From Nocardioides panzhihuensis (GTDB lineage: Bacteria > Actinomycetota > Actinomycetes > Propionibacteriales > Nocardioidaceae), in assembly GCF_013408335.1 (NCBI RefSeq), contig NZ_JACBZR010000001.1, positions 2,666,001-2,730,000 of the forward strand: a DNA stretch of 64,000 bases, in the 5' to 3' direction. Each line of letters opens with the position of its first letter. Position 1 is the first letter of the stretch. The notes under the pieces were generated by a model. It saw only the letters and a list, made by a program, of their open reading frames with translations, was not told where the DNA came from and made no database searches. Of this stretch, positions 56,830 through 59,942 are shown piece by piece. The translations under genes and the position numbers were made by a program.

Positions 56830-57339
56830 CTAGCCCCCGGTCCGACCGAGCGACTGCGACTGCGGCTCCTCGCTGGGACTCGCTGTCTCGGTCGGCGTCG
56901 GCTCCGCGGTCGGCTCGGCGGGATCGGTGGGCTCGGCCGTCGGCTCCGGCTCTGAGGTGCGCGTGGGGTCCGAGGTGGGCGTCGAGCCGGCGGTCCGACC
57001 GGGCTCGGCCAGTTCGCGCGGAGGCTTCGGACGGTTCGGGTCCGCACCCATGGTCGGGCTGGGCTCGCCAGGATCGTCGATCGTGCCGTGGTGATCCTCG
57101 GCGGCACCACCCGGACGCGCGGGCGCGCCGGTGGACGGCTCCTCGGACAGCTTCGCGGCGGGGATCGGCGGCAGCGGATCCACATCGGGGTACGTGTCCT
57201 CGACACCCTCGTACCCGGTGAGCGGGTCACGATCAGGGCGCTCGCCCCCGGCCAGACCAGCGACAAGGACGATCGCCCCGAGACCGGTCATGACCGCGCC
57301 GGCCAGGATGCCCGCAATGGCGACCTGCTTGATGTGCAA
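56830..57339 (-). CDS. Membrane-anchored Pro/Thr-rich protein, paralogue 1
   Basis: A 169-residue protein starting LHIKQVAIAGILAG at a TTG codon, set by AGGAG five bases upstream; no ATG or GTG fits. One N-terminal hydrophobic helix (about residues 4-28) is followed by a long extracytoplasmic tail very rich in Pro, Thr, Glu and Ser (EPTAEPTDPAEPTAEPTPTE). Its start is nearly identical in pattern to the next gene (LHxKQxAxAG). It looks like a wall-spanning spacer or a short anchored protein; its function is unknown. Confidence 0.65.
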   Translation of the reverse strand: MHIKQVAIAGILAGAVMTGLGAIVLVAGLAGGERPDRDPLTGYEGVEDTYPDVDPLPPIPAAKLSEEPSTGAPARPGGAAEDHHGTIDDPGEPSPTMGADPNRPKPPRELAEPGRTAGSTPTSDPTRTSEPEPTAEPTDPAEPTAEPTPTETASPSEEPQSQSLGRTGG

Positions 57340-57447
57340 CTCGACTCCTGTACCCGCCCCGCGCGTGGTGTGGCGCACAGCCTAGGGCAGCGAGGCCTCG
57401 AGCGTTACCCTCCCCGGGGCATCGCGACCGGCACTCAGGAGCCGAGA

Positions 57448-57990
57448 TCAGTCAGTGGGCGGGTCCGAGGGGTCGGGCTCGCCGGTGTCCGACTCGCTCG
57501 GCGACTCGGTCGGCTCGCTCGGCGACTCGGTCGGCTGGCTCGGCGACTCGGTCGGCTGGCTCGGCGACTCGGTCGGCTGGCTCGGCGACTCACCGGGCTC
57601 GCTGGGCGACCCGCCGGGTCCGCCCGGCCTGCCCGTCGGCCTGGGCTCCGACGGAATCTGAGTGGGGCGTGCCGGGACCGGGGACATCGAGCCCGGCGCC
57701 GACTCCTCGACCGCACGCGGGCTCGCCGGGACCGACTCGCCGGCCTCCGGCGCCTCGCTCCCTGGAGCCCGACTGAACGGACCGCTCTGCGTCGGCGTCG
57801 AGGAAGACTTCTCCAGCGGTGCCACCGGCGAGACCGGTGAGATCAGGCTGACCCCGGACTCGTCTGTGGCGTAGCTGTGGCCTGGCTCCTCGGCTCCGGC
57901 GTTTCCGACGATCAACCCACCGATCCCGATGCTCGTCATGGCCAGCCCTGTAGCCATACCGGCCAAGGCGATCTGCTTGCGGTGCAACAC
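57448..57990 (-). CDS. Membrane-anchored Pro/Ser-rich protein, paralogue 2
   Basis: A 180-residue protein beginning (GTG at 57990 or TTG at 57987) LHRKQIALAGMATGLAMTSI, an N-terminal hydrophobic helix, followed by an extracytoplasmic low-complexity domain. The C-terminal part is a 7-residue repeat (PTESPSQ) ending in PDPSDPPTD. Shared start pattern and architecture identify it as a paralogue of the neighbouring gene, with 108 bp between. The GGGGGA at 57995 fits either start. I do not recognise a family; related roles in the cell envelope are likely. Confidence 0.62.
   Translation of the reverse strand: MLHRKQIALAGMATGLAMTSIGIGGLIVGNAGAEEPGHSYATDESGVSLISPVSPVAPLEKSSSTPTQSGPFSRAPGSEAPEAGESVPASPRAVEESAPGSMSPVPARPTQIPSEPRPTGRPGGPGGSPSEPGESPSQPTESPSQPTESPSQPTESPSEPTESPSESDTGEPDPSDPPTD
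57499..57592 (-). repeat. 21-bp tandem repeat in paralogue 2 (about 4.5 copies)
   Basis: Units at 57499, 57520, 57541, 57562 and a partial copy at 57583 encode PTESPSQ/E heptads. Units two to four are identical. Copy number can change without frameshift. Confidence 0.9.
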
Positions 57991-58146
57991 GATTCCCCCG
58001 TGATACCAACGACTCGACAAGTTCTCTGGTCGTGCACAGTAGACCCACAAAGATCGAAACTGTGCGACCACTATCGGAGTGTCGAGCCTCGCTGGCAAGT
58101 CCTCGGCATCTATCGTTCGACCGATATAACTCCTGGTAGGACCTCT

Positions 58147-58163
58147 GTTCGCCCCGGGCGAAC
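58147..58163. promoter_or_regulatory. ClgR-type operator upstream of the PopR/ClgR-like gene
   Basis: GTTCGCCCCGGGCGAAC is a perfect 17-bp palindrome that matches the ClgR site GTTCGC-N5-GCG. It lies 40 bp before the start of the regulator gene, just upstream of a -10-like TAAGGT (58191-58196). Confidence 0.75.
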
Positions 58164-58202
58164 GGCCCGCTCGGCCCATCCGCGCAGCGCTAAGGTGGGG
58201 TC

Positions 58203-58523
58203 ATGGGCGAATTGATCAGGTTTCCCGGCCACCCGCTGCCGGACGAGGACAAGCCGGCGCCGCTGTGGCGTGAGGCAGCCGGCCAGGTGATCCGCGAGGA
58301 GCGGTCCCGCCAGGAGCGTACGCTCGCCGACGTCGCCGGCGATGCCGGCGTCTCGACGCAATACCTCTCCGAGATCGAGCGCGGCCGCAAGGAGCCCAGC
58401 TCCGAGATGCTCGAGGCCGTGGGCGGTGCCCTCGGTCTGGGTCTCGTCGACCTCACCGAGCGGGTCACCCGCACGCTGCGCGCGGGCGCCCGCCTCTCCG
58501 GCCCCCTGGCTCTCGCCGCCTGA
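58203..58523 (+). CDS. PopR/ClgR-like XRE regulator of clp genes with a degron-like tail
   Basis: A 106-residue protein with one XRE helix-turn-helix (about residues 29-75: TLADVAGDAGVSTQYLSEIE then RGRKEPSSEMLEAVGGAL). The YLSEIERGRKEPSSE segment is typical of ClgR and PopR, activators of clp genes in Actinobacteria. The C-terminus reads GPLALAA, resembling the ssrA tail and the C-terminal Ala pair reported to target PopR and ClgR for Clp degradation. It converges on a clpP pair (15 bp apart). A ClgR-type box lies upstream of it, and a PopR-type box precedes the clpP pair, so it likely regulates both. Confidence 0.78.
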   Translation: MGELIRFPGHPLPDEDKPAPLWREAAGQVIREERSRQERTLADVAGDAGVSTQYLSEIERGRKEPSSEMLEAVGGALGLGLVDLTERVTRTLRAGARLSGPLALAA

Positions 58524-58538
58524 CCCGGTCGGCTCGGC

Positions 58539-59144
58539 TCAGAGCGCCGCGAGCTTGCGGCTCTCCAGCACCCCGTCCGCCAGCCCGTACGCCACAGACT
58601 CCTCGGCGCCCAGGACGAGGTCGCGCTCGGTGTCGGTGTGGACCTTGTCCAGGCTGTGGCCGGTGTGGCGCGCGAGCAGCGCGTCCATCTCGGCGCGCAC
58701 CCGGCTGATCTCCTTCGCCGCGACCTGCAGGTCGGTGACGTCGCCCCGCTGACCGCCCTGTCCCGGCTGCTGCAGCACCACCCGCGCATGCGGGAGCACC
58801 GTACGCCGCCCCGGCTCCCCCGCGGCCAGGAGCACCGCCGCCGAGCCGGCCGCCTGGCCCACGCACGTGGTCGCGACCGTGGCCCGGATGAACTGCATCG
58901 TGTCGTAGATGCCGAACATCGCGGTCGGGTCCCCGCCGGGCGAGCTGAGATAGAGGTTGATCTCGGAGTCCGGGGACTCCGACTCCAAGTGCAGCAGCTG
59001 CGCGATGACGACGTTGGCGACGCCGTCGTCGATCGGAGTGCCGATGTAGATGATCCGGTCCGAGAGCAGCCGGCTGTAGATGTCGACCGCACGCTCGCCG
59101 TTGCGGGTCTTCTCGACGACCGAGGGGATCGTGTACGAGCTCAT
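58539..59144 (-). CDS. clpP: ATP-dependent Clp protease proteolytic subunit (second of pair)
   Basis: A 201-residue ClpP-fold serine protease with triad Ser101 ([11 protein letters not shown]), His119 (PHARVV) and Asp171 (TDTERDLVL). It follows the other clpP gene after 79 bp and starts at an ATG with GGAGGTGG upstream. In Actinobacteria paired ClpP proteins form mixed 14-mers with ClpC/ClpX. The surrounding regulator and PopR-like box suggest equivalence to clpP3/clpP4 of Streptomyces. Confidence 0.93.
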
Positions 59145-59223
59145 CGGGCCACCTCCGTAGCGCAAGCGCCAGAATACGGACGCGGCCCGATGAACGATCC
59201 GACGTTCGCTCGCTGACGCTCGC

Positions 59224-59856
59224 TCATCGGGCACCACCGGCAGGGGACAGGCCGAAGGCGACGCCGCGCTGCTGCACCGGCGTCACCGACTGCACGTCGT
59301 TGAGCACCTCGTCCACGAACCCGTACTCGCGCGCCTCCTCCGCGGTGAACCATCGGTCCCGTAGCGAGTCCTTGTCGATCTGCTCGACGCTCTGGCCGGT
59401 GTGTGAGGCGGTGATCCGCAGCATCTGCTCGGTCATCCGCGCCAGCCGCGCCGCCTGCACCTCGATGTCGGCCGCGGACCCGCCGATCCCGGCCGACCCC
59501 TTGTGGAGCAGCACCTCGGTGTGCGGCAGGACGTAGCGCTTCCCCGGCGTGCCTGCGGTGAGCAGGAACTGCCCCATGCTCGCAGCCATCCCCATCCCGA
59601 GCGTGGAGACGTCGTTGGGGATCAGGTGCATCACGTCGTAGATCGCCATCCCGGCCGTCACCGAGCCGCCGGGCGAGTTGATGTAGAGGGAGATGTCACG
59701 GTGCGGGTCCTCGGCACTGAGCAGGAGCAGCTGCGCGCAGATCCGGTTGGCGATCGCGTCGTCCACCTCCTGGCCGAGCACGATGATCCGCTGGTTCTGG
59801 AGTCTTGCCGTCAGCTGCTCGTCGAGCGGCCCGGCACTGATGGGTGTCTGAGTCAT
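59224..59856 (-). CDS. clpP: ATP-dependent Clp protease proteolytic subunit (first of pair)
   Basis: A 210-residue ClpP with triad Ser93 (GMAASMGQF), His112 (LPHTEVLLH) and Asp163 ([10 protein letters not shown]), and the usual [16 protein letters not shown]. It lies first in the two-gene unit. Its start is at 59856, and a palindromic box at 59892-59918 lies 36 bp upstream, in the position of an activator site. It would be expressed when the regulator escapes degradation. Confidence 0.94.
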
Positions 59857-59891
59857 GCCATCGACTCTGACCGAGCCCGAGGCCACGTACC

Positions 59892-59918
59892 AGCGGATCC
59901 GCCGCAGGCAGATCCGCT
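59892..59918. promoter_or_regulatory. PopR-box-like palindrome upstream of the clpP pair
   Basis: Two 12-bp arms (59892-59903 and 59907-59918) flank GCA with one mismatch. The core TCCGCC-GCA-GGCAGA differs by one base from TCTGCC-N3-GGCAGA, the PopR site I recall upstream of Streptomyces clpP3-clpP4. Confidence 0.7.
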
Positions 59919-59942
59919 CACAGCAGAACGCGGGGACCCCGA

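Follow-up and report, generated by a model that had tools for sequence, protein, structure and literature searches.

The popR-clpP4-clpP3 cassette of Nocardioides panzhihuensis, carried on a 64,000-nucleotide stretch of contig NZ_JACBZR010000001.1 (positions 2,666,001 to 2,730,000, here called the window), is by its sequence the PopR/clpP3-clpP4 backup-protease cassette known from Streptomyces. The regulator gene popR (58203-58523, + strand; coordinates are those of the window) is convergent with clpP4 (58539-59144, - strand) and clpP3 (59224-59856, - strand), as in the Streptomyces cassette, where PopR has been reported to activate clpP3 clpP4 (PMC9765437, PMC12607617 and PMC9775585). In the window, a cascade running from ClgR through PopR to ClpP3P4 probably replaces self-activation by PopR. 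The cassette as such is already known; what is new is that popR is predicted to be wired to ClgR, through a box that trades places with a PopR-type one, the box class at popR appearing lineage-specific, ClgR-type in one Nocardioides clade and PopR-type in most other loci. The initial annotation had proposed that the regulator switches on a second ClpP pair and is itself under ClgR, and this is the reading best supported in silico, by the presence of clgR and clpP1P2, the clpC boxes, the ClgR-type half at clpP1, the regulator tree and the operator layout.

A predicted ClgR-type operator, GTTCGC-CCCGG-GCGAAC (GTTCGCCCCGGGCGAAC), occupies positions 58147-58163 and begins 56 nt upstream of the popR start codon, so that the perfect GTTCGC-N5-GCGAAC palindrome previously claimed before the regulator is indeed there. 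No second exact copy occurs in the genome (6.3 Mb). The box fits the definition of the ClgR box, GTTCGC-5N-GCG, given for S. lividans, in which the ClgR regulon comprises clpP1, clpC and lon (PMC9775585). Among relatives the place and the arms of the popR box are conserved while its N5 spacer drifts.

The popR box was scored in 116 loci (36 of the first 40, and 80 more): 29 were ClgR-type, 62 PopR-type, 4 ambiguous and 21 had none, the last class meaning the lack of an exact GC-N5-GC and including the near misses L165, L192, L237 and L238. PopR start codons in the locus sets were picked by script, and L095-L098 were left out, having no clpP nearby or encoding ClgR. Adding the Streptomyces cassette to the 96 loci with two clpP genes gave 97, of which 90 were left once identical PopRs had been removed; in this set 24 boxes were ClgR-type, 46 PopR-type and 4 ambiguous, 15 loci had none, and Streptomyces was unscored. 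Both cassette trees were quick searches and were built without the loci with a single divergent clpP (L086, L088-L094); L183, a long branch in which both "ClpP" pieces are ClpP4 matches, was kept in the trees and excluded from the triad counts below.

In the tree of 90, 24 Nocardioides cassettes, including that of the window, lie on one side of a branch (Shimodaira-Hasegawa-like approximate likelihood ratio test 97; 76 without the ClpP4 columns). Within this clade the popR box is ClgR-type in 20/24 loci, 16 of them exact at all eight arm positions, three matching at 7/8 and L171 at 6/8. The 65 other loci comprise 46 with a PopR-type box at popR, four with a ClgR-type box (L070, L087, L181, L195), four ambiguous and 11 unscored. 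Outside the clade popR bears TTCYGC-N5-GCRGAA or near forms at the same spot, mostly -56/-57. When the two classes alone are counted, the tree requires the box class to change three times, without giving a direction.

The recognition helix of ClgR reads SLGYISE[IV]ERGQKEASSE in 17 of the 18 readable ClgRs (of 20), seven from clade hosts and ten from Nocardioides with a PopR-type box; the remaining readable one, from another family, reads SLGYLSEVERGQKEASSE. A changed ClgR specificity was accordingly rejected as the cause of the box difference, the helix being the same in both Nocardioides groups. Because the ClgR helix is alike and G003, which has a PopR-type box at popR, carries the same ClgR box at clpC, the cassette promoter rather than ClgR seems to differ between the lineages.

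Two position matrices were compared, a ClgR matrix from 17 distinct clpC and clpP1 boxes (shuffled 99.9% level, 9.4) and a PopR matrix from 140 distinct clpP3 boxes, neither of them trained on popR upstreams. For the popR box of the window the ClgR matrix gives 12.7 bits and the PopR matrix -3.1, and at popR the ClgR matrix exceeds the PopR matrix in 22/24 clade loci.

The genes needed for such a cascade, clpP1-clpP2 and clgR, which the initial annotation had named as genes to look for, are both present elsewhere in the genome. Four clpP genes were found, clpP1-clpP2 at C1:843031-844186 and the window pair, and the best ClgR match lies at C1:2784658-2784918 (107.7 bits, against 70.1 bits for the window regulator in the same search). 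Across the same genus PopR (match of at least 69 bits) occurs in 23/37 genomes. Twenty-two of these have four clpP matches or more; the other is G004, of 85% completeness, with clpP3P4 as its two clpP matches. Each of the remaining 14/37 genomes has two clpP matches and no PopR. The motif GTTCGC-N5-GCG stands upstream of clpC, at -101 to -140, in 11/11 same-genus genomes examined, N. panzhihuensis included, and among six further genomes of the same order a clpC box at most two mismatches from the full palindrome, lying near or farther out, was found in G037, G038, G039, G041 and G042. Upstream of clpP1, a complete GGCGAAC half paired with a weaker one is present in 30/30 same-genus loci, the operator taking the form AATCYGC-N5-GCGAAC in 19/30 and ATACGC-N5-GCGAAC in the three closest relatives. 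The clpP1 operator of N. panzhihuensis (C1:842935, L099, from -69 of the start) reads GTTCTGC-CGTCG-GCGAAC, a hybrid in which one half is PopR-type and the other ClgR-type. In the 250 bp before clgR no ClgR-type box (at least 6/8) was found in 20/20 loci, with a weak PopR-like match in two; this absence of an autoregulation box is a weak result, because the script took the open reading frame starts wrongly in at least five loci (L248, L249, L252, L255, L262).

Upstream of clpP3, the palindrome TCCGCC-GCA-GGCAGA previously noted before the clpP pair is present as TCCGCCGCAGGCAGA at 59898-59912; the operator is larger than had been stated, since this palindrome is the core of the proximal of two abutting boxes. 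The predicted PopR-type boxes, read toward clpP3, are ATCTGCCTGCGGCGGAT (proximal, 59897-59913, at -57 of clpP3) and TTCTGCTGTGAGCGGAT (distal, 59912-59928, at -72), repeated with a 15-bp period. The tandem pattern has one match in the genome, the clpP3 site, and with this pattern no further PopR target was found in the genome. All 24 clade loci have PopR-type boxes at clpP3 and none has a ClgR-type box (0/24), with the 15-bp tandem in 22/24; the values for shuffled upstreams were 4% and 0%. The clpP3 boxes are PopR-type in 58/65 non-clade loci as well. The PopR matrix exceeds the ClgR matrix at clpP3 in 23/24 clade loci, a win that is partly circular because the matrix was trained on clpP3 boxes. 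In L079 and L080, for which no popR box was scored, a ClgR-type box abuts a PopR-type box before clpP3, another possible wiring.

Several observations weigh against the cascade from ClgR through PopR. Four of the 24 clade loci have no scored popR box: L066 and L167 have none, L165 has a one-mismatch box at -67 and L176 a two-mismatch box at -106. L171 owes its ClgR-type label to a 6/8 box at -75 and has a hybrid at -57 as well. The score of 12.7 for the popR box of the window is to be set against a minimum of 17.5 and a median of 21.2 in the training set of the ClgR matrix, and only 14/24 clade popR upstreams exceed the level of 9.4 (21/24 the 95% level), because the likeness of popR boxes to those of clpC and clpP1 is confined to the arms and leaves out the spacer. 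The ClgR matrix also wins at popR in 17 of the 65 non-clade loci, some Nocardia and other loci have intermediate boxes, and G040, the sixth of the same-order genomes, gave no clpC box in the clpC upstream scan. The box classes themselves overlap, in the hybrid clpP1 operator and in the PopR region quoted for S. lividans, TCTGCC-3N-GGCGAATCTGCC-3N-GGCAGA, which has one GGCGAA half (PMC9775585), and the ClgR matrix gives the clade clpP3 boxes a median of 14.2, above its shuffled 99.9% level. Because the half-sites of both classes overlap in these ways, some cross-binding between ClgR and PopR boxes is likely; ClgR might have direct access to clpP3, and GTTCGC might be recognised by PopR.

The latter possibility would leave the self-activating loop in place, PopR binding GTTCGC-N5-GCGAAC as a diverged box of different affinity with ClgR uninvolved. 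Such a loop would agree with the promoter position, which is that of the PopR-type boxes of relatives, with the GGCGAA half in S. lividans, and with residue 52 of PopR, which partly differs between the groups and so also counts against the cascade. Apart from that residue, however, the two groups have almost the same recognition helix, with mild differences at residues 64 and 58; the clpP3 boxes of the same 24 loci are still PopR-type, none GTTCGC-type; and the arms of the popR box match the ClgR boxes of clpC and clpP1 in the same genus. A retained loop is considered unlikely. Less likely again is control of the whole locus by ClgR, which would bind popR and, by relaxed recognition, the clpP3 boxes, leaving PopR largely redundant. 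The median of 14.2 and the hybrid half-sites at clpP1 are in its favour, but the PopR matrix wins at clpP3 in spite of the ClgR score, albeit trained partly on those boxes, popR co-occurs with the second clpP pair, and PopR is the reported activator in Streptomyces (PMC9765437, PMC12607617, PMC9775585).

The window regulator is an XRE-type helix-turn-helix protein of 106 residues (58203-58520; HTH_3, 38.8 bits), paralogous to ClgR yet distinct from it by Pfam, NF041677 and the regulator tree. It scores 71 bits with the NCBI ClgR model NF041677, below the cut-off of 170, under which the ClgR of the same genome (107.7 bits) also falls. A tree built from 35 PopRs, among them those of Streptomyces and Embleya, and four ClgRs (4 of 15 tried) splits the two groups with support 100/97 and puts the window regulator on the PopR side. 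Its closest PopRs are those of Nocardioides sp. MAG-46 (99%), Nocardioides sp. YR527 (96%) and N. luteus (94%). Identity with the ClgR of the genome, the box being its autoregulatory site, is very improbable: the model does match the regulator and the box does stand upstream of its own gene, but the cassette has the synteny with clpP4-clpP3 seen in Streptomyces, and the stronger ClgR match elsewhere in the genome together with the tree position led to its rejection.

That the palindromes are chance matches is scarcely credible: although 58 genomes contain between 0 and 4 copies each of the exact GTTCGC-N5-GCGAAC and the loose forms are not enriched, position and arms are conserved while spacers drift, no exact palindrome of the popR type appeared at -85..-35 when each of 89 popR upstreams was letter-shuffled 200 times, and of the eight genomes with an exact copy at popR, six have no other copy and two have one more. 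With one mismatch allowed, GTTCGC-N5-GCG was not enriched in the window (57 against 60 expected), nor was TCTGCC-N3-GGCAGA genome-wide (20 places against 38 for the reversed control). Box counts were rejected as evidence for this reason, and the case for the boxes is one of exactness, position and conservation.

A TAAGGT at 58191-58196 (+ strand) is the likely -10 element of popR, on the basis of conservation: TANNNT ends 5-10 nt before the popR start in 22/24 clade loci and 50/65 others. This spacing suggests that the popR transcript is leaderless or nearly so, with the ClgR-type box just upstream of the -35 region, a place that fits an activator. A sigma-70 consensus scan reported no popR promoter, so the layout rests on conservation.

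The window PopR ends in GPLALAA, confirming the LALAA tail read from the 58203-58520 product in the initial annotation; LALAA is encoded at 58506-58520 (+ strand) and is a putative Clp degron, by its conservation and its likeness to the transfer-messenger RNA (tmRNA) tag. The tmRNA of this genome encodes the tag ADSKRSSFALAA, with the C terminus FALAA. Among 109 distinct PopRs, Ala is found at -1 in 101 and at -2 in 97 (Val in 12) and Leu at -3 in 91, inner positions being far less conserved. Degradation of ClgR by ClpP1P2 is known only from Streptomyces work. There, such tails have been tested by replacing the two terminal alanines with aspartate, in PopR and, as described in PMC9775585, in ClgR. 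Streptomyces PopR has been reported to be degraded by ClpP1P2 (PMC9765437, PMC12607617), and by analogy the window PopR would be short-lived through a C-terminal alanine degron.

From these patterns we infer which protein would bind which box, together with PopR degradation, clpP3P4 activation, ClpP4 docking and the contrast in dynamics, and the circuit might work as follows. With ClpP1P2 working, ClgR and PopR would both be short-lived, their C-terminal alanines acting as degrons. When ClpP1P2 capacity falls, ClgR would be stabilised, would bind GTTCGC-N5-GCGAAC at -56 of popR and would raise popR transcription along with that of clpP1P2 and clpC. PopR, likewise spared, would then bind the tandem boxes in their 15-bp register and activate clpP3-clpP4, giving a backup core in which ClpP3 would cut while ClpP4 would mainly assemble and dock. 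Two proteolysis-gated steps in series should delay and threshold the backup, whereas a PopR-type box at popR, as in most non-clade loci, would give self-activation and positive feedback. We lean, if only slightly, towards the broader view that the popR promoter serves in evolution as a switch point of a single site: a ClgR-type box taking the fixed position of a PopR-type one converts a self-activating backup switch into a serial two-degron cascade, both labile activators having to be spared, while the backup core has drifted to a catalytic ClpP3 and a dead ClpP4.

If this wiring is true, one genus holds the same cassette in two wirings that are one operator apart, self-activation and an upstream cascade could be compared in their effect on the response, all-or-none or graded, by swapping a single 17-bp box, and the ClgR regulon extends to the backup core. 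ClpP is an antibiotic target, and the timing of the backup core thus bears on drug response in Actinobacteria.

ClpP3 is a ClpP1-like subunit (CLP_protease, 238.3 bits), 68% identical to ClpP1 of the same genome over 106 amino acids, with Ser-His-Asp intact; this triad is present in 88/90 loci, the other two being not fully readable. ClpP4 is ClpP2-like (CLP_protease, 215.5 bits; 51% identical to ClpP2 of the same genome), and its triad in the window is Gly-Gln-Asp, both the catalytic Ser and His being lost. Over 89 loci the ClpP4 triad is broken in 62 and intact in 27, Asp being allowed as Glu or Asn; Ser is replaced variously by Ala, Gly or Trp, and the triad state needs six changes on the tree, four forced by starred branches. 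These losses form a natural series for the role of a dead ClpP subunit. In Streptomyces, ClpP1 cuts and ClpP2 docks the ATPases (PMC9765437, PMC12607617), the ClpP2 triad being present though dispensable (PMC9765437). The division of labour may carry over, with the difference that the ClpP4 triad is lost in the window and in the majority of loci. When the docking-pocket positions named in PMC9765437 were placed by alignment to ClpP2 of the same genome, ClpP4 had Tyr at the first in 89/90 loci, with a gap in the other, while the second and third were Phe, His or Tyr in 90/90; ClpP3 instead had Trp in 50 loci or Tyr in 33, and Leu in most (68/90). By analogy, ClpP4 may be the docking subunit.

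The system thus resembles that of Streptomyces in its backup ClpP pair, convergent popR, C-terminal LAA and tandem operator in 15-bp register. The clpP3 operator of S. fungicidicus, TCTGCC-CGT-GGCGAA-TCTGCC-ACG-GGCAGA, fits the PopR region of S. lividans, and the window operator is laid out in the same way but differs in its right halves. S. fungicidicus PopR ends in GLCLAA rather than GPLALAA; upstream of its popR a partial PopR-type box and no GTTCGC were seen by eye, in contrast to the full ClgR-type palindrome of the window; and its ClpP4 keeps Ser but not His, whereas the window ClpP4 keeps neither. Its cassette lies on the 927-kb plasmid p1 (NZ_CP023408.1, L239). The popR cassettes of Microbacterium, Agromyces, Gordonia, Nocardia and other Nocardioides share the gene order and the tail, but their popR box is PopR-type. 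As for the ClgR regulon, the same class of box occurs here at clpC and, as one full and one weak half, at clpP1, while popR, a candidate target here, is not among the targets reported in the parts of the sources covered. The literature on PopR with ClgR or Nocardioides and on ClgR, available in part and not covering the original PopR and ClgR papers, gave no report of ClgR control of popR.

Loci L086 and L088-L094, from family f3 genomes, have popR and a lone clpP in divergent orientation, the intervening region carrying tandem PopR boxes, and their PopR ends in FALVA or YALVA. Another palindrome, GTTCGCTCACCGCGAAA, is found with close variants at 13 places in the genome and precedes members of a repeated gene in the four places inspected (L014, L015, L018, L022, near 1501), two of these genes being DUF222-HNH by Pfam; the reading of these palindromes as ClgR sites was dropped on that account. 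Beside the cassette, 56830-57378 and 57448-58179 (- strand) encode neighbouring short proteins, without a match in Pfam, whose N-terminal hydrophobic segments resemble each other and whose tails are rich in Ser, Pro, Glu and Thr, with SPSQPTE repeats in the tail of the 57448-58179 product.

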